Positions 37,109 to 45,996 of a stretch of 64,000 nt of DNA are shown one piece after another. Every line of letters begins with the position of its first letter. Position 1 is the stretch's first letter. The translations under genes were made by a program, and so were the position numbers. The stretch lies in NCBI RefSeq assembly GCF_002001205.1, contig NZ_MUNZ01000077.1, forward strand, positions 1-64,000, written 5' to 3'. Source of the DNA: Hydrogenophaga sp. A37. Lineage in GTDB: Bacteria; Pseudomonadota; Gammaproteobacteria; Burkholderiales; Burkholderiaceae_C. The notes under the pieces were generated by a model that was not told where the DNA came from, did no database searches, and saw only the letters and a program-made list of their open reading frames with translations.

Positions 37109-37699
37109 TCAGCCCGCCACCAGGCGGTGCACCAGGTCTGGCGTGCTGTGCGCCTGGTACTTGCGCATCAGGCGCGCGCGGTGGATCTCCACCGTGCGGT
37201 GGCTGATGCCCAGCGCCTTGCCGATCTCCTTGCTGGTCAGGCCGTCCATCAAAAAGGCGGCCACCTCGCGCTCGCGCCCGGTCAGATCGGCCTTGACGGT
37301 GCGGCGTGAGCTCAGGTCCTCAAAACTCCAGATGCCGGCCTCGTGCGGCGCTTCGCGGCGCAGGGCCCGGCCGGTCACGTGGCACCAGAAGGTTTCGCCC
37401 TTGAGGCGGCCGTCCATGCGTTTCATGATGCGGTCGTCAGCGTAGGTGCCGCTGCGCCCGAGGATCGGTGCGATGCGCGCGCCGGTGCGTTCGTACTCGT
37501 CGGCGCTGGGGTAGAGCACCTGAAAACTCTGGCCCACGAGCTGTTCACGCGTGGTGCCAAACATCTCGCACAGCGCCTGGTTGCAGTCCACCATCGTGCG
37601 CTGCCGCGACAGCGCCAGCCCGATGGGTGCCAGGTCGAAGGCGAGGCGGTAGTCGATGCCATTGGCGTTGTTCATGGGGTCGGTGTTCGGGTTAGCCAT
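37109..37699 (-). CDS. PAS-LuxR transcriptional regulator, divergent from scoAB
   Basis: A 196-residue regulator with an N-terminal PAS domain (about 20-125, with Phe-Asp-Leu-Ala-Pro-Ile-Gly-Leu-Ala and Asn-Gln-Ala-Leu-Cys-Glu-Met-Phe) and a C-terminal LuxR helix-turn-helix (about 135-190, Thr-Gly-Arg-Glu-Arg-Glu-Val...Ser-His-Arg-Thr-Val-Glu-Ile-His). No receiver domain is present, so it senses a ligand or redox state directly. It diverges from scoA over a 71-bp gap that contains a 20-bp palindrome. An internal ATG (37675) is an alternative start. Confidence 0.9.
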   Translation of the reverse strand: MANPNTDPMNNANGIDYRLAFDLAPIGLALSRQRTMVDCNQALCEMFGTTREQLVGQSFQVLYPSADEYERTGARIAPILGRSGTYADDRIMKRMDGRLKGETFWCHVTGRALRREAPHEAGIWSFEDLSSRRTVKADLTGREREVAAFLMDGLTSKEIGKALGISHRTVEIHRARLMRKYQAHSTPDLVHRLVAG

Positions 37700-38485: not shown

Positions 38486-39124
38486 ATGCCTTGGACCCAA
38501 GACCAGATGGCCGCGCGTGCGGCGCAGGAACTGCAGGACGGCTTTTACGTGAACCTCGGCATCGGCATCCCGACGCTGGTGGCCAACCATGTGCCCGACC
38601 ACGTGGAGGTGTGGCTGCAGAGCGAAAACGGCATGCTGGGCATCGGCCCGTTTCCCTATGAAGACGAGGTGGACCCGGACCTGATCAACGCCGGCAAGCA
38701 GACGGTGACCACCATGAAGGGCTCGGCCATCTTCGGCAGCGACCAGTCGTTCGCCATGATCCGCGGCGGCAAGATCAACCTGTCCATCCTGGGCGCCATG
38801 CAGGTGACGGCCGAGGGCGACCTGGCCAACTGGATGATCCCCGGCAAGATGGTCAAGGGCATGGGCGGCGCCATGGACCTGGTGGCCGGCGTGAAGCGCG
38901 TGATCGTGCTGATGGAACACGTGGCCAAGAAGAAAGACGGCACCGAAGACCTGAAGATCCTGCCGAAGTGCACGCTGCCGCTGACCGGCAAGGGCGTGGT
39001 CAACCGCATCATCACCGACCTGGCCGTGATGGACGTGACACCCGAGGGCCTGAAAGTGGTGGAACTGGCGCCCGATGTGACGCTGGAGCTGCTGCAGTCC
39101 AAGACGGGTGTGACGCTGATCTGA
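38486..39124 (+). CDS. scoB: Succinyl-CoA:3-oxoacid CoA-transferase, subunit B
   Basis: The 212-residue beta subunit, carrying the catalytic Glu in Ser-Glu-Asn-Gly-Met-Leu-Gly-Ile-Gly (about 51-59), which forms the glutamyl-CoA thioester. CAGGAGA precedes ATG 38486. A strong terminator lies 34 bp downstream, isolating the operon from the peptide gene. Confidence 0.94.
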
Positions 39125-39157
39125 CCCTTTGGGGACGGGCGGTTGACCGCCCGACTG

Positions 39158-39193
39158 ACGACAAAAAGCCTGGTTCGCCAGGCTTTTTGTCGT
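39158..39193. terminator. Strong bidirectional terminator after scoB
   Basis: ACGACAAAAAGCCTGG pairs with CCAGGCTTTTTGTCGT over a perfect 16-bp stem and a TTCG tetraloop, with T-rich arms. It is preceded by a smaller GGGCGGT/ACCGCCC hairpin at 39136-39153. It insulates the following peptide gene. Confidence 0.9.
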
Positions 39194-39246
39194 TTCAGAA
39201 CCCACACTTTGGGCGGGTTGTCCGACGAATGGTTTGTATCAAAGTG

Positions 39247-39276
39247 TTTACTTTTTATCGCATGCTTATGTATACT
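39247..39276 (+). promoter_or_regulatory. Promoter of the double-glycine peptide gene
   Basis: TATACT at 39271-39276 is a strong -10 box, with TTTACT at 39247-39252 as a possible -35 box (18-bp spacing). The 39225-39318 stretch is markedly AT-rich compared with the rest of the window. The predicted leader is about 40 nt. Confidence 0.6.
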
Positions 39277-39323
39277 AAAGTTGATGTTTGTAAGTTGGTA
39301 ACGTTTTTTTACAGGAGCATGAA

Positions 39324-39506
39324 ATGCGCGTTTTGAGCAACGAAGAGATGGGCAATGTCGCAGGCGGTTGGTTCTTTTCATGCCGGAGCTACAAGCCGCG
39401 CTCTTACTGCAATCCGAAACCCATTTGTCAGCCCAAGCCCGTCTGCCAACCCAAGCCCGTGTGTGAGCCTAAGCCCCCTGTGGAAGAGCTGCCTCAGGTG
39501 GACTGA
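39324..39506 (+). CDS. Double-glycine-leader secreted peptide with Cys-Pro-Lys hexarepeats
   Basis: A 60-residue peptide. Residues 1-15 (MRVLSNEEMGNVAGG) match a bacteriocin-type leader; microcin V has the same pattern of Met-Arg at the start, Glu at -8 or nearby, a hydrophobic residue at -4 and Gly-Gly at the cleavage site. The predicted mature part is 45 residues: an aromatic start (Trp-Phe-Phe), five Cys, and four hexads of the form [N/Q/E]-P-K-P-x-[C/V]. The core is net basic and the last eight residues are acidic. AGGAG lies 6 nt before ATG 39324, and a promoter and terminators on both sides make it a single-gene transcript. It converges on a C39-peptidase exporter. It could be a bacteriocin, a signal or a metal- or surface-binding peptide; I recognise no known family for the mature part. 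Confidence 0.8.
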   Translation: MRVLSNEEMGNVAGGWFFSCRSYKPRSYCNPKPICQPKPVCQPKPVCEPKPPVEELPQVD

Positions 39507-39534
39507 GCGCCGGCCCGACCGCTTCGGTCACGAC

Positions 39535-39562
39535 AAAAAATGGCACCTTGGGTGCCATTTTT
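39535..39562. terminator. Bidirectional terminator between the peptide and its exporter operon
   Basis: AAAAAA-TGGCACC-TTG-GGTGCCA-TTTTT works in both directions between the peptide gene (plus) and the tolC-like gene (minus). A small GACCG/CGGTC hairpin lies at 39517-39529. Confidence 0.85.
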
Positions 39563-39586
39563 GTTTGTGGGGGTCGATGAGAGGGC

Positions 39587-41029
39587 TTAAAGCCCGGCGC
39601 GACCGCTCGCCAATCCCAGCTGCGTCCGGGCGGTGAGCTGGTCCACCTGAGCGCTGACGCGCTGCCGGCGGGCGTCGGCGAGCGCCGACTGTGCGTTGAG
39701 CAACTCGAGGATGGACCCCACGCCGGCCCGGTAGCGGCCTTGGGCCACCTTGTACGTGTTGTTGGCGGAGACCAGCAGGCGTTCGCTGGCCAACAGGCTC
39801 TGCCGGCTGGTCAGCAGGGCCTGATGGGCCTGCCAGAGCTGGCTGTCCACCTCGCGGCGAGCGGTCTCCAGCCCGGCTTCGCGGGCGGATTTTTGTGCAA
39901 GCACCTGCGCTTGCTGTGCGTTGGATTCACGACCGTTGAACAGCGGCATGTTGGCCACGATGGCGGCATTGGCGGTGGGGATGTTGCCGTTGCCGGCCGC
40001 TCCCCAATTGCGCGACGTGCCGCCGTTGGCGCTGACGGTGAGGCTGCCCTTGCCCTGGGCCTGAATCGCTTCCAGCCGGGCCTGCAAGGCATCAATCTGG
40101 GCCTGCGCCGCGCGCAACCGGGGGTGCTGGGCGCGGGCCTCGCTTCGCAATGCGGCCAGATCGGGAGTCTCCGGACCCGGACGCGCCCACACCGTCCATT
40201 CGGCCAGCTGCAGGGGTTGCTCGATGTCGGCACCCAGCGCCAGCGCCAGGTGGCCACGCGCGTTTTCCCAGTTGCTCTGGGCGCGCACGCGCTCCAGCGT
40301 GGCTTGCGCGAGCGCGGTCTGGGCCTGAAGGCGGTCGATCTGGTTGCCCACCTGGGCGTCGTAACGCGCCTGCGCCGCCGCCGACGTTCGCGAGGCGGTG
40401 GCTTCCGCTTCGGTGGCCGCCTCCAGCGAGGCGGTGGCCACCACCGCTTCGCCGTACAGGCGCAGCAGCTCGCGAACCGATTCGAGCAGGGCATTGCCCT
40501 GGCTGGCCATGGCCGCGGACAGGGCCAAGCGGGCCTCTCGCAGGCTGGCGCTGCGCTGGCCGAAGTCGAACAGCGCCCACGACAGGCCCAGCGAGGCGCC
40601 GATGGTGCGGCCCGAGTTGCCGGTGGCGTTGAAGTTGCGGGCCGCGCTGTAGTCCACGCTGGCGTTCCAGCTGGGGCGCAGGGCCACTTCGCCCAGCTCC
40701 ACCCCCGCCGCTTGCTCGGCCACGTCGGCCAACGCCTGGCGCAGGGCAGGGCTCTTGCACAGCGTGCGCGCCAGCGCGTCGCCGAGGGTCAGGCGTTCCC
40801 AGGGCGGCTCAGCGGTGGCCGCGCAATCGCGGTGGCCTGGCTGCCAGCGCTCGGCCCCGTGTGCCCAATGGCGAGTGGGCGCTGCTTCTTCAACGCCGAA
40901 CACGGGCGGCTGCGCCAGCAGGGTGCTCAGGCGCAGGTGTGGGTCGCCCACCTGGGCTTTCACCACGCCAGCGCTGAGCAAGGCGAGTACCAGCGCCAGC
41001 GGACGCCACCGGGACGAAACGGGCGTCAT
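39587..41029 (-). CDS. TolC-family outer-membrane channel of the peptide exporter
   Basis: A 480-residue TolC-like protein with a Sec signal peptide (about 1-25, Val-Val-Lys-Ala-Gln), an N-terminal extension of about 60 residues, and two OEP repeats rich in Ala/Gln/Glu helices (about 80-280 and 290-475). It forms the trans-envelope duct together with the HlyD and ABC proteins. Its start overlaps the ABC stop (ATGA), so the three genes form one operon (hlyD-ABC-tolC). A dedicated TolC is not always found with microcin exporters, which supports a self-contained system. Confidence 0.92.
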   Translation of the reverse strand: MTPVSSRWRPLALVLALLSAGVVKAQVGDPHLRLSTLLAQPPVFGVEEAAPTRHWAHGAERWQPGHRDCAATAEPPWERLTLGDALARTLCKSPALRQALADVAEQAAGVELGEVALRPSWNASVDYSAARNFNATGNSGRTIGASLGLSWALFDFGQRSASLREARLALSAAMASQGNALLESVRELLRLYGEAVVATASLEAATEAEATASRTSAAAQARYDAQVGNQIDRLQAQTALAQATLERVRAQSNWENARGHLALALGADIEQPLQLAEWTVWARPGPETPDLAALRSEARAQHPRLRAAQAQIDALQARLEAIQAQGKGSLTVSANGGTSRNWGAAGNGNIPTANAAIVANMPLFNGRESNAQQAQVLAQKSAREAGLETARREVDSQLWQAHQALLTSRQSLLASERLLVSANNTYKVAQGRYRAGVGSILELLNAQSALADARRQRVSAQVDQLTARTQLGLASGRAGL

Positions 41030-43212
41030 GGTCGGCGAGCCCTCTCAGCGACGTGTTCGAAGTAGCCTTGCGGCGTGCCGTCGAAGACCACCCGGCCCGC
41101 CTGCATCTCCACCACCCGCTGCGCCGAACGCAGGGTTTCGGGGCGGTGCGCGATCACGATGCGTGAGACCGGCAGGGCGGCGATGGCTGCGTTCACCCGC
41201 GCCTCGGACTCGATGTCGAGGTGGCTGGTGGCTTCGTCGAGGATCAGCACCTTCGGTCGTTTGTACAAGGCCCGCGCCAGCAGCAGGCGCTGTTTCTGGC
41301 CGCCCGAAAGCACCGTGCCCATGTCGCCTACCAGCGTCTGGTAGCCCATGGGCATGGTCTCGATGTCGTCATGCAGTGCGGCCATGTCGGCGCACTCGAC
41401 CACCCACTCGAGGTCGGGCTGGGCGTCGAAGAAACAGATGTTGTCGCTGATCGAACCGGCGAACAAGGTGTCGTCCTGCATCACGGTGGCCACGCCCTGG
41501 CGCCAGCGTTCGATGCCGATCTGCGCCAGCGGCACGCCGTCGGCGCGAATCTGGCCCTCGATCGGCGCGTAGGTGCCCAGCAGCAGGTTGATCAGGGTGG
41601 TTTTGCCGCAGCCGGACCGGCCGGTGATGGCGACCACCTCGCCGGCCGCGATGTCGAGCGAGAGCCCGTCGATCACCCAGGGCGCCTGGTCGGCATAGCG
41701 GTAGCGCAAGCCTTCGAGCCGGAGCGCGGGGCTCGGGCCGGCGTCGTTGCCGGCTTGCGCCGCCGCCAGATCGCGCGCACCGAGGCGCTGGGCTTGCGGC
41801 ATGGCGGGCGTGAGCACCAGGTCGGCCAGGCGTTCGGCGTGCAGGCGCAGCATCTTGAGGTCGATGGCCTTGTCGATGAGCGCGGTGATCCGGCTGTCGA
41901 ACTGGGCGCGGTAGGCCAGGAACGCCATCAACATGCCGACGGTGAGCTCGGTGGCGATGATCTGGCGCGCGCCGAGCCAGATGATGAGCACCATGAACCC
42001 ACCGCTGAGCAGGCCGCGCAGCAGGCCGTAGAGGATCTGCAGCTTCTGCACCTTGAGGCGGGCGTTGGTGGCACTGACCATGAGGGTCTGCCAGGCGCTC
42101 TGGCGCTGGATTTGCCGGCCAAACAGCTGGATCGCGCGCATGCCGCGGATCGTCTCCAGGAAGTGGCTGGACTGGTTGGCGTCGCGCACCAGGGTCTCTT
42201 CCGATGCCGCGTACAGCGGTCGGTACCAGAGCAGGCGCATGGCCAGGTACACCGTCACCGCGATCAGCGACACCCAGGCGAGCGCGGGGCTGTAGATGAA
42301 CATCAGCACCAGGGTGAGGATCACGAGCAGGCCGTCGAACAAGGACTCCACAAAGGCGGAGGTCAGGGTGCGCTGGATCTCGTCCACCGAGCCGGTGCGC
42401 GAGACGATGTCGCCCAGGTGGCGGTTTTGGAAGTACGACAGCGGCAGGCGCGTCATGTGGGCAAACACATTGGCTTTCCACTGCAGGCCGATCGAGGTGT
42501 TGATCACCATCAGCACCCACGAACGCAGCAGCGACGTGGCCTGCTGCACCAGCATCAGCAGGCCGAAGCCCAGCGCCAGCGTGGTCAGCAGCTGGGTGTC
42601 GCGCGAGACCACCACGTGGTCCAGCACCCACTGCATGAACAGCGGCGAGACCAGGCCAAACACCTCCAGCGCCAGCGAAAGCAGCAACACCTGCGCGAGC
42701 GAAGGCCAGAAACCGGCGACCTGGCCGATCAGCTGGGTCAGCCTGACGCGGGTCTTTTCTTCTCGCGGCGCGAACCCCGGGTTGGGCCAGACCTCCAGCG
42801 CCACGCCGGTGAAGTGGCGCGAGGTGTCTTCCAGGCTCATGCGGCGTTCACCGAACGCCGGGTCGTGGATCACCACGTGGCCGTTGCCCACCGACTTGAG
42901 CACCACGAAGTGGTTGAGGTCCCAGTGCAGGATCGCGGGCAGGCGCAGCTGTGCCAGCTCGTCGAGTTCGAGGCGCAGGCCGCGCGTGCCCAGCTGTTCG
43001 CGTTGGGCGATGTCGGTGAGCGTGGCCAGCGTGACACCGGTCAGCGAGATCGCGTGGCGCGTGCGCAGGGCGGCGAGGTCGGTGACCACGCCATGGCGGT
43101 TGAGCACCATGGCCAGGCAGGCCAGTCCGCACTCGGCGGCCTCGGTCTGCAGGATCACGGGCAGTGTGCGACCCAGGCCAAAAGAGAGTCGGTCGGTCCA
43201 GGTCACAGGCAT
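41026..43212 (-). CDS. Peptidase C39-containing bacteriocin-type ABC transporter
   Basis: A 728-residue exporter of the CvaB/RaxB type that removes double-glycine leaders while exporting the peptide. Residues 1-140 form a C39 peptidase with oxyanion Gln22, catalytic Cys28 (Glu-Cys-Gly-Leu-Ala-Cys-Leu), His101 (Asn-His-Phe-Val-Val-Leu) and Asp117 (His-Asp-Pro-Ala), so it should be active. Five or six membrane helices (about 165-440) and an ATPase domain follow, with Walker A GRSGCGKTT, signature LSGGQKQR and Walker B LILDEATSHLD. The only double-glycine peptide I see nearby is the one at 39324. Confidence 0.95.
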   Translation of the reverse strand: MPVTWTDRLSFGLGRTLPVILQTEAAECGLACLAMVLNRHGVVTDLAALRTRHAISLTGVTLATLTDIAQREQLGTRGLRLELDELAQLRLPAILHWDLNHFVVLKSVGNGHVVIHDPAFGERRMSLEDTSRHFTGVALEVWPNPGFAPREEKTRVRLTQLIGQVAGFWPSLAQVLLLSLALEVFGLVSPLFMQWVLDHVVVSRDTQLLTTLALGFGLLMLVQQATSLLRSWVLMVINTSIGLQWKANVFAHMTRLPLSYFQNRHLGDIVSRTGSVDEIQRTLTSAFVESLFDGLLVILTLVLMFIYSPALAWVSLIAVTVYLAMRLLWYRPLYAASEETLVRDANQSSHFLETIRGMRAIQLFGRQIQRQSAWQTLMVSATNARLKVQKLQILYGLLRGLLSGGFMVLIIWLGARQIIATELTVGMLMAFLAYRAQFDSRITALIDKAIDLKMLRLHAERLADLVLTPAMPQAQRLGARDLAAAQAGNDAGPSPALRLEGLRYRYADQAPWVIDGLSLDIAAGEVVAITGRSGCGKTTLINLLLGTYAPIEGQIRADGVPLAQIGIERWRQGVATVMQDDTLFAGSISDNICFFDAQPDLEWVVECADMAALHDDIETMPMGYQTLVGDMGTVLSGGQKQRLLLARALYKRPKVLILDEATSHLDIESEARVNAAIAALPVSRIVIAHRPETLRSAQRVVEMQAGRVVFDGTPQGYFEHVAERARRP

Positions 43213-43228
43213 CTCCGGTCGTGGCGGC

Positions 43229-44512
43229 TCATGGCGTGGCGCGTTGGGTCACGCTGAAAAGGGGTTCGAGCATCCACTCATAGAGCTTGCGGCGTTCCTG
43301 CAGGATGTCGGCTTCAAGCTGCATGCCCGCCTGCAAGGGGCGCTTTTGCCCGTTGGCGTCGATGCTGCTGGCCTTCAGCTTTACCTGGATGGCGAACACC
43401 GGCTCACCCGGTGCCAGGCCGGTGGCGGGCAGGCCGGTGAGTTCGGCGGTGCTGACCGCCGAGGTGGAGACGGTTTCAACCACGCCCTCGTGTTGCCCGA
43501 ACTTCTGGTAGGGGAAGGCCTGGTAGCGCAGCAGCACCGCATCGCCCGCCTGCACAAAGCCGATGCTGCTGCTGGGCGCATACAGCCGGGCCTGCAGCTC
43601 GCCCGACGCCGGCACCAGCGTGACCATGGCCTGGTTGCTGTCGACCGTCTGGCCCACCTCGGCCACCACCAGGGTCGCGCGGCCGGCCTCCGGCGCCGTG
43701 ATCAGCACACGCCGGCGCGACTCGACCTCGGTGAGTTGCTGGTCGGTGCTGGACACCTCGCGCTCCAGCTGGGCCACGAGGTTGGCGTGGCGCAGGCGGG
43801 TCGCCAACAGCTCCTGTTGCACCAGGCTGGCTTCGCGTTGCACGCCAAGCGCCTCGCGCTCCAGGCCGCGCAGGCGCGAGCGTTGTTCGGTGAGGTCGAT
43901 CTCTTTCTGAATCAGTTCTTCGCGCGCAATGAAGTCCTGGTCGGCCAGGCTCTGGTATCGCTTGCGCGTGTCTTCGGCGATCTGCAGGCGCGTTTTCTGC
44001 TGCTCAATCTGGCCGGCGATGGCGGTGGATTCGCCGCGCAGGGTGTCGGCCCGGCGCTGCAGGTTGGCCAGTTCGTCGGCCTGCACTTGTTGCGAGCGCT
44101 GGATTTCCTGTTCCAGCGAGCCTTTGCGCTCGCCCACCTGCAGGGCAATGTCGGCCTGCAGTTCCCGCGCGCCGTCGCCCTGGCGGTCGCTGCTGAGCAC
44201 GTAGAGCAGCGCACCCTTTTTGACGAGCTGGCCATCGCTCACGCGTTTCTCCAGCACCACGCCCGCCTGCGGCGTGTACACACGGATCAGGCCACCAGCG
44301 GGCATGAGCTGCCCGCTCACAGTGACGCGGCGCGTGTGGCTTCCGAGCATCAGGAAGGCGATGACCGCCAACGCCAGCAAGGCCGCCACCAGGCTCATCC
44401 ACAGCGTCGAGAGTTTCGGTGTGAGGACGATCTCGCCCAACAACTGGGTGCGCTGGGAGGCCAGGGCTTCGGCTCTGAACAGGCGCTCGGAGGGCGGTGG
44501 GGAGGAGGGCAT
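43229..44512 (-). CDS. HlyD-family periplasmic adaptor of the peptide exporter
   Basis: This membrane fusion protein links the ABC transporter to the TolC-like channel. From ATG 44512 it has 427 residues: a cytoplasmic N-terminus with Leu-Phe-Arg-Ala-Glu-Ala-Leu (typical of CvaA/RaxA adaptors), one membrane helix (about 39-60), a lipoyl-like half, a long coiled coil (about 110-240) and a beta-barrel domain. An ATG at 44584 gives 24 more residues encoded by AT-rich, promoter-like DNA, so I rejected it. It is first of the three-gene exporter operon. 44513-44739 contains the operon's promoter region and nothing else I can name. Confidence 0.9.
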   Translation of the reverse strand: MPSSPPPSERLFRAEALASQRTQLLGEIVLTPKLSTLWMSLVAALLALAVIAFLMLGSHTRRVTVSGQLMPAGGLIRVYTPQAGVVLEKRVSDGQLVKKGALLYVLSSDRQGDGARELQADIALQVGERKGSLEQEIQRSQQVQADELANLQRRADTLRGESTAIAGQIEQQKTRLQIAEDTRKRYQSLADQDFIAREELIQKEIDLTEQRSRLRGLEREALGVQREASLVQQELLATRLRHANLVAQLEREVSSTDQQLTEVESRRRVLITAPEAGRATLVVAEVGQTVDSNQAMVTLVPASGELQARLYAPSSSIGFVQAGDAVLLRYQAFPYQKFGQHEGVVETVSTSAVSTAELTGLPATGLAPGEPVFAIQVKLKASSIDANGQKRPLQAGMQLEADILQERRKLYEWMLEPLFSVTQRATP

Positions 44513-44739
44513 CGCGTCGAGCGTCCGGGTTGGGGTTTTGTAACGTGTTGATACATTTTTAGTAAGTCCAAAGTGTATCGACATTCACCACGGCGCCCGG
44601 GCGGAAAACCGGCGGTTCCGTGCCTTGGCACACGCCAACGGGGCCGGGTGACGCGGCGAGCACGCGCAGGAGCACGGCCGGTCCGGCCCTGTCATGATCC
44701 ACCGCCTGCCCTTCATTCAAACCTCGCCCGGAGCCCCGC

Positions 44740-45922: not shown

Positions 45923-45996
45923 TGGAGCGGGTGAAGGGAATCGAACCCTCGTCAGTTGCTTGGGAAGCAACAGCTCTGCCATTGAGCTACACCCGC
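45923..45996 (-). tRNA. tRNA-Gly (anticodon CCC)
   Basis: On the minus strand the cloverleaf begins GCGGGTGTAGCTCAATGGCA. The 7-bp acceptor stem GCGGGTG/CACCCGC, D arm, anticodon stem GTTGC/GCAAC with loop TTCCCAA (anticodon CCC), and TPsiC arm with GGTTCGATTCC are all visible. The discriminator is T, and CCA is encoded (45925-45923). It lies 45 bp after the pit gene on the same strand; TACACT about 10 bp upstream may be its own -10 box. Confidence 0.95.

Follow-up and report, generated by a model that had tools for sequence, protein, structure and literature searches.

The 64,000-nt window that we analysed, from contig NZ_MUNZ01000077.1 of Hydrogenophaga sp. A37, holds a probable peptide-export locus: a gene for a 60-residue precursor with a double-glycine (GG) leader and a Cys-Pro-Lys repeat core, convergent with minus-strand genes for a TolC-like channel, a peptidase-containing ATP-binding cassette exporter (C39-ABC) and an HlyD-type membrane fusion protein. 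Judged from the sequences of its relatives, the peptide represents a family made up of the leader, a Cys-bearing low-complexity repeat and often a Pro-rich tail, in which the middle is exchanged while the leader and, in two genera, the tail are kept. Throughout, positions refer to the window, and G and L numbers denote the genomes and loci compared.

By open reading frame (ORF) listing and translation, the precursor consists of the leader MRVLSNEEMGNVAGG (15 residues) and the core WFFSCRSYKPRSYCNPKPICQPKPVCQPKPVCEPKPPVEELPQVD (45 residues), with a Shine-Dalgarno-like AGGAG upstream of the ATG. The core has five Cys, no Gly, four copies of the hexad pattern [N/Q/E]PKPx[C/V], and a C-terminal part that reads PPVEELPQVD. 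An earlier note on this DNA had described just such a 60-residue GG peptide, with five Cys and four hexads in a 45-residue core, and its likening of the leader to that of microcin V was borne out by CvaC15, reported as MRTLTLNELDSVSGG (PMC10231218). In an alignment of ten leaders, M1, R2, L4, E8, M9, G14 and G15 were invariant. The core fits no family in the databases searched, in line with the note: Pfam gave no match to the peptide at E≤1 and NCBIfam no model at cut-off. The peptide scored 12.2 bits against the radical S-adenosylmethionine (rSAM) peptide model TIGR04149 (cut-off 25), the class IIb bacteriocin model TIGR03949 was not among its matches, and its relatives scored 12.1–16.4 bits against these two models (cut-offs 21.5 or 25). 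We read the best PHROGs match (PHROG 30731, E 0.0045, covering 30 of 1060 profile positions) as composition. A sequence search of the PDB returned a single match, at E 6.8, and a search of plasmid records none at E≤0.01. AlphaFold placed a helix at leader residues 6–12 and no secondary structure in the core, in a weak model (mean predicted local distance difference test (pLDDT) 70, predicted template modelling score 0.20).

Runs of Pro, Ala or Arg codons arise readily in GC-rich DNA, and the ORF might be untranslated or a chance frame beside an exporter for something else. We consider this very improbable. When the window's 1290 open segments were scored with a leader profile built from nine relatives, the window sequence left out, the ORF came first at E 3.6e-11 and the runner-up reached 1.1. 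The three codon differences between hexads 2 and 3 are all synonymous, while each of the remaining five hexad pairs shows 1–3 synonymous and 2–3 non-synonymous codon differences. The promoter and the position of the gene are conserved with G432, and leader and exporter co-occur among congeners, as described below.

The exporter side of the locus is complete. The earlier note had reported a full HlyD/C39-ABC/TolC operon facing the peptide and a C39 domain that keeps Gln22, Cys28, His101 and Asp117; ORF listing and Pfam confirmed the former, and the four residues were invariant in four aligned exporters, the window's included. The C39 domain scored 118.6 bits in Pfam (cut-off 22) and aligned to the solved double-glycine protease 6mpz at E 1.3e-20. 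The exporter stayed below the NHLP bacteriocin exporter model TIGR03796 (485.9 bits, cut-off 853.3) and the peptide cleavage/export transporter model TIGR01193 (322.8 bits, cut-off 523.85). Exporter relatives at E≤1e-100 occur in at least 1000 plasmid records, those listed all having <60% identity. A second C39 locus in the same genome (C176, L043) reads Ser by eye at the catalytic position (DSGLSCL versus ECGLACL), which we take to be as in HlyB-type transporters, and no GG peptide was found within 9 kb of it. In the window's domain, Cys28, His101 and Asp117 correspond to Cys32, His105 and Asp121 of CvaB, reported as its catalytic residues (PMC9746304).

We compared the distribution of peptide and exporter in 67 congeners (same genus) and 399 genomes of the family, using a leader profile of 20 columns (cut-off E≤1e-4 among congeners, E≤1e-3 family-wide). 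The exporter was present in five of the 67 congeners at E≤1e-20, and exactly those five also hold leader peptides (G000, G404, G432, G419 and, with two, G402); no other congener had a leader match better than E 0.11. This contrast of 5/5 versus 0/62 has a hypergeometric probability of 1e-7, to be read with the caveat that lineages are not independent. Across the family, leader peptides were found in eight genomes and the exporter in all eight: seven were recovered by the exporter search at E≤1e-30. In the eighth, G019, an exporter of 64% identity, truncated at a contig end, lies 1.8 kb from the peptide. The co-occurrence, together with adjacency in relatives, bears out the proposal in the earlier note that a dedicated C39 exporter pairs with the peptide, and the locus has the GG precursor and C39 exporter, linked or co-occurring, that broadly characterize GG-peptide systems exported by peptidase-containing transporters. 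The converse, from exporter to peptide, does not extend widely. Any C39 relative at E≤1e-30 was found in 131 of the 399 family genomes, and among the 43 family and genus exporter stretches compared, many of those outside the window's branch showed other peptides or no peptide.

The note had named an exporter conserved without the peptide as evidence against the pairing. Two congeners, G419 and G402, do lack an adjacent peptide, but their genomes encode leader peptides at other sites, far from the exporter. We therefore rejected the reading of L131 (G419), L132 (G402) and L137 (G134), none of which has a nearby GG peptide, as orphan exporters, since leader-profile matches occur elsewhere in the same genomes; G134 has two peptides, both unlinked to its exporter. 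Searches with the whole peptide were less specific. By tblastn, 342 of the 399 family genomes matched at E≤1, nearly all of them Pro-rich noise, judging by partial matches and internal stops. G031 and G239, from one other genus, hold near full-length relatives (residues 1–52) directly upstream of HlyD, C39-ABC and TolC genes; the G305 match has the same leader type and a different core, and at the G201 match no GG peptide was found. The window's own genome gave six further matches, all at E 0.015 or worse.

To place the pairing in a wider set, we assembled 124 exporter loci, duplicates included: the best 80 of 580 relatives (named loci), 40 genus and family stretches, the window and L039–L041. 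In three pairs (L048/L161, L082/L149, L076/L163) the exporters are identical and come from the same record. A GG peptide, recognized by leader pattern and ribosome-binding site, lies ≤2.5 kb from the exporter in approximately 62 of the 124 loci and in 53 of the 95 whose two flanks each exceed 2 kb; the pattern misses leaders ending in VYGG (L232, L233) and admits a few false frames (for example, second L070 row, L144). The density of leader ORFs was 1.80 per 10 kb within 1.5 kb of exporters (62 in 343,946 bases), 0.083 inside exporter genes (4 in 484,684 bases) and 0.033 beyond 2.5 kb (2 in 606,664 bases), matches at 1.5–2.5 kb being left out. The association of leader and exporter is thus no by-product of the search pattern. 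In a tree of 123 exporters (quick search, no bootstrap; L134, a short ABC fragment from the same genome as L135, was dropped), the window falls in a branch of 19 rows with a Shimodaira–Hasegawa-like approximate likelihood-ratio support of 100. Fifteen of the 18 members with judged flanks have an adjacent peptide, and the other three are the exporters of G419, G402 and G134 with unlinked peptides. The peptide classes marked on the tree (PC, LG, Gly, other) were set by eye, L064 being labelled PC though it has no Cys and 9% Pro. Gene pictures drawn by longest ORF take antisense frames for genes at several loci and were used just for flanks seen twice or confirmed.

What these exporters accompany varies greatly behind a common leader. 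The closest relatives of the peptide, FFFCRPKCSPKPKCQPKPKCSPKPKCQPKPKCNPTPVPVEPVEPPEEY of G404 and CCWSWWSWRSSCNPKPVCDPKPKCDPKPKCDPKPPCDNGTPQVP of G432, strictly keep the six-residue period with Cys and Pro-Lys-Pro while the other letters vary. The G419 and G402 peptides have the same leader type and cores of Gly-Ser-Lys tetrads with Cys; the core of the third G402 peptide (L203) is different again, and its leader reaches just E 0.39 with the profile. Several peptides per genome occur in G402 and G134. Peptides with the same type of leader that go with related exporters have Gly-Ser-Lys, Gly-Lys, Gly-His-Ser and poly-Pro cores. The hexarepeat that the earlier note proposed as a possible new peptide class is therefore one variant and does not define the family. 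A PQV[P/D] end is found in five of the seven peptides of the genus: the window's, that of G432, that of G419 (which ends in CTPPPVCGPAEPPQVP) and two of three in G402, L203 among them with EPQVP. The remaining two are the G404 peptide, with PPEEY at its end, and a G402 peptide with PIDSVP. In G134, both peptides end identically in poly-Pro-QDF (PPPPQDF) behind dissimilar cores. One G134 core shares a stretch with the L203 core: L203 2324-2560 and L213 6824-7078, from different genera, have NNGWGNGDDxAPGNSL in common and different C-terminal tails. Among 20 tabled precursors, which include near-identical species (L064/L140/L141, L071/L142), net core charge is +1 to +15 in 19 (L203, −2) and at least two Cys are present in 19 (L064, none); the L071 and L142 cores hold six His and four Cys.

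Two further kinds of cargo were seen. L041 (6290-6562), on a distant exporter branch, has a long Pro-Thr repeat and a Gly-Ser-His-Arg end behind the same 15-residue leader pattern; it lies upstream of HlyD and C39-ABC genes, next to which a uvrB-like gene stands instead of TolC. L047, L048, L050, L051, L070, L078, L162 and L169 carry Leu-Gly-rich near-repeats, mostly behind MAIQxL...GG, and L169 has three such peptides in a row.

The Gly/Ser-rich cores go with an additional gene. Proteins of ~315 residues that form one family are encoded next to the unlinked peptides in G402, G419 and G134, and also at L045, L049, L071, L142 and L136, where peptide and exporter genes cluster. The family is present in two of the 67 congeners and five of the 399 family genomes (at most five candidates per genome being scored in the family-wide search); none was detected in the window genome at E≤1e-5. 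In two of those five, G314 and G168, the gene adjoins exporters that are 52% identical to the window's and outside the tree, and the Lys- and Ser-rich GG peptides there escaped the leader pattern. All eight partner loci with a pattern-found peptide have a core with at least 33% Gly+Ser, against at most 23% in all 11 cores at loci without the partner (7% in the window), which gives p 1.3e-5 if loci are taken as independent, which they are not. L203 was left out of this count, its stretch being too short to show the partner; at L213, where the partner is present, one of two cores is low, at 16%, and the two added partner loci have 28% (L232) and 46% (L233). Five members scanned matched no Pfam or NCBIfam model above cut-off. 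An AlphaFold model (pLDDT 52) is too weak for a firm fold and gave no Foldseek match at E≤0.001; ranked highest were Noc, ParB, PadC and sulfiredoxin at E 0.02–0.1, with the serine kinase SbnI lower, and Noc was the sole match of a sequence profile against the PDB, at E 0.44. A ParB/sulfiredoxin-like fold is, on this modelling, a lead only, and a role as a peptide-modifying enzyme would be a guess. A survey of the ParB fold from 2025 mentions the serine kinases SerK and SbnI, and the terms bacteriocin, ribosomally synthesized and post-translationally modified peptide (RiPP) and secretion do not occur in it (PMC12704722).

In the window, the peptide gene stands alone, bounded by an upstream hairpin, its own promoter-like site and a second hairpin before TolC (Table 1). 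One promoter-like site was found, against 0.1 on average in shuffles, and a nearly identical stretch precedes the G432 peptide. The second hairpin has a z of −2.5 for its 69-nt stretch, with equally good folds in five of 200 shuffles, and a consensus terminator scan did not list it. We also observed an octamer, TGTATCAA, with just two copies in the window on either strand, one before the peptide gene (39235-39242, +) and the other before HlyD (44548-44555, −). It also occurs ahead of the G432 peptide and the G404 HlyD gene, but not ahead of the G404 peptide, and is possibly an operator shared by the peptide gene and HlyD. Beyond the exporter, a tRNA-Gly gene is found in the window (45923-45996), L131 (8459-8532) and L132 (8496-8569), possibly marking an old integration site.

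Table 1 Features of the window and of the related loci.
Feature	Position	Strand	Basis or remark
CoA-transferase gene upstream of peptide	38486-39124		Pfam CoA_trans
52-aa TTG frame with membrane-like stretch	39143-39301		hydropathy scan, peak hydropathy 2.35
Hairpin ending upstream CoA-transferase gene	39155-39200		z −7.9
Sigma-70-like promoter of peptide gene	39247..39276	+	TTTACT, 18, TATACT; consensus match only
GG-leader Cys-Pro-Lys repeat peptide gene, 60 aa	39324..39506	+	ATG ORF; leave-one-out leader profile
Double-glycine leader, 15 residues	39324..39368	+	10-leader alignment
Four Pro-Lys-Pro hexads NPKPIC, QPKPVC, QPKPVC, EPKPPV	39411..39482	+	codon print-out; 18-nt repeat spacing
C-terminal tail LPQVD	39489..39503	+	PQV[P/D] also ends peptides of congeners, in part with different cores
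Hairpin with T/A runs separating the convergent peptide and TolC genes; probably a two-way terminator	~39534..39565	.	folding
TolC-like outer membrane channel (OEP, PF02321)	39587..41029	-	ORF listing, Pfam
C39-ABC exporter, 728 aa	41026..43212	-	ORF listing, alignment, Pfam
C39 peptidase domain	42778..43161	-	Pfam, alignment, structure-database match
HlyD-type membrane fusion protein (HlyD_3)	43229..44512; longer ORF to 44584	-	ORF listing, Pfam
~315-aa partner genes	L201 8984-9934; L202 6111-7061; L213 8398-9411; L045 11278-12246; L049 4650-5588; L142 9325-10149; L071 4324-5142; L136 1537-2430; L232 7174-8043; L233 1400-2284
Lys- and Ser-rich GG peptides with Cys	L232 8182-8367; L233 1082-1267		leader MRTL(D/N)SEELKLVYGG; beside partner and a more distant C39 exporter

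The conserved leader, the catalytic residues, gene linkage and co-occurrence, together with the established biology of C39 transporters, lead us to infer how the precursor is handled. Very probably, the C39 domain of the neighbouring ABC protein recognizes the 60-residue precursor through its 15-residue leader and cuts it after Gly14-Gly15, and the 45-residue cationic peptide passes through ABC, HlyD and TolC to the outside. Once there, the repeats would probably form an extended polyproline-II rod. Polyproline II has three residues per turn, which puts Cys six residues apart at ~19 angstrom, and one face of the rod would, with a six-residue period, carry Lys and Cys in alternation. Because five Cys is an odd number, at least one would be left for a bond between molecules. 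The product would most likely serve at the surface or in the matrix as a polycationic peptide open to cross-linking, binding envelope polymers of the producer or its neighbours, and the short C-terminal tail would act as a shared address or anchor. We tentatively and narrowly prefer this role, at somewhat less than even probability, because low-complexity cores substitute for one another behind a constant leader type, with Cys and, in two genera, also the tail retained, because the charge is mostly positive and Cys occurs in nearly all cores, and because no convincing immunity gene was found and the EbfG proteins offer a precedent. EbfG1–4 of Synechococcus elongatus are small GG-motif proteins that are C39-exported and enable biofilm, their secretion requiring the peptidase domain of PteB (PMC4997328); that system is cyanobacterial, and the likeness is drawn from its description.

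Several observations weigh against a surface or matrix role, and they bring up a microcin-like antibacterial, in which the cationic, aromatic-headed Cys-Pro peptide would inhibit relatives, the tail binding a receptor and the variable core doing harm. We regard this as a serious possibility of lower probability. Leader and exporter are of the microcin V (CvaC/CvaB/CvaA/TolC) type, with the same 15-residue GG leader pattern, a peptidase-ABC with the Cys/His/Asp set, and a membrane fusion protein with TolC. Modular cores with shared tails also suit a microcin, because class II microcins are described as having their uptake module in the C-terminal and their killing module in the N-terminal part (PMC13174018). 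The presence of several peptides per genome also counts for a microcin; sharing of one exporter by several peptides has been reported for such systems, and Bacteroides GG bacteriocins without an immunity gene are on record (PMC10233263). Presence in just 5/67 congeners is patchy and suits a competition trait equally well. One G134 core, L203 and Zoogloea-type peptides are not plain cationic repeats, and some exporter relatives (L080, L082, L122) lie beside peptides that by eye are Gly-rich, zipper-like and similar to known bacteriocins. Caulobacter CdzC/CdzD, too, are small type I-secreted proteins held at the surface that kill (PMC5380434). Unlike the window peptide, whose core has no Gly and beside which no such immunity gene was recognized, they are glycine-zipper proteins that aggregate and have an immunity protein, CdzI (PMC5380434).

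In contrast to class II microcins, the window system has its own TolC gene in the operon, its core consists of Pro-Lys-Cys repeats, and its tail lacks the Gly/Ser-rich siderophore end of class IIb microcins. To our knowledge, Pro-Lys-Cys and Gly-Ser-Lys repeats are unlike those of class II microcins. Above all, we found no convincing immunity gene, of the 51–216 residues typical of class II microcins or otherwise, in the gaps of the window, G432 and G404 or at the G402 and G419 peptide loci; no search was made for distant ones. The window peptide is flanked by gaps of 199 bp (upstream) and 80 bp. The former contains a terminator hairpin, the promoter and a single ORF of at least 40 residues, the 52-residue TTG frame just before the peptide gene, and the latter no such ORF. 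No ORF of this size occurs in the G432 gaps (136 and 64 bp) or in the 79-bp gap between the G404 peptide and TolC, and the 430 nt before the G404 peptide hold just frames with peak hydropathy ≤1.47. Between the preceding gene and the ~315-residue partner, the G402 and G419 peptide loci share peptides and antisense frames only. The membrane-like stretch of the 52-residue frame counts in favour of a microcin, but we rejected the frame as an immunity gene, as it crosses both hairpin and promoter and has no counterpart in the 136-bp gap of G432. Should the peptide prove a microcin, this frame would be the best immunity candidate.

It is improbable, in our view, that the product is an extracellular signal sensed by a receptor, or a metal ligand acting through Cys (and His in some relatives). 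C39-exported GG peptides include cell-to-cell signals (PMC7595303, PMC7018657), and a PAS-LuxR regulator gene lies at 37109-37699. That gene, however, is also present in flanks where no peptide adjoins (L131, L132), and a core that is wholly different between close relatives is hardly expected of a receptor ligand. The six His and four Cys of L071 and L142 would suit metal binding, but Cys at the polyproline-II spacing would be too far apart for one intramolecular site.

A further likeness, to TonB, is one of composition only. As a membrane-anchored energy transducer, TonB differs from GG peptides, and the NCBIfam TonB matches were weak and far below cut-off (E 0.64 for the window peptide, 0.029 for the relative at L133). 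Its Lys-Pro linker shares Pro-Lys repeats with the window peptide and is reported to form polyproline II rods (PMC10771500). In the literature searched, which left out most subscription journals, we found no paper on double-glycine together with Comamonadaceae or Zoogloea, nor any describing such repeats by title or abstract start. The system is assembled from parts of known kinds, GG peptides exported by a peptidase-ABC, while its cargo, shared tails and partner are undescribed in that literature.

Beyond the surface or matrix role, these observations invite a broader and rather unlikely reading. One C39 exporter would serve a modular secretion system for leader-tagged, exchangeable low-complexity cassettes (Cys-Pro-Lys hexads, Gly-Ser-Lys tetrads, Lys-Ser, Gly-His-Ser, poly-Pro) with genome-specific C-terminal tags, acting in trans even on unlinked peptides. 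The Gly/Ser/Lys-rich class would be modified before export by a new enzyme of ParB/sulfiredoxin fold, for example a peptide-serine kinase, and the Cys-Pro-Lys class would form an unmodified, disulfide-linked rod.

Gram-negative GG-peptide exporters tend to be read as microcin systems. In the clade of the window, the cargo consists of low-complexity, mostly Cys-bearing repeats without recognizable immunity genes and, in two genera, with shared C-terminal tags. In a laboratory strain this makes a non-bacteriocin role testable, with the locus as a concrete four-gene target. Mining of exporter neighbourhoods misses such cargo, as three seemingly orphan exporters have leader peptides elsewhere in the genome, and the ~315-residue protein that accompanies the Gly/Ser class might carry out new peptide-modification chemistry.

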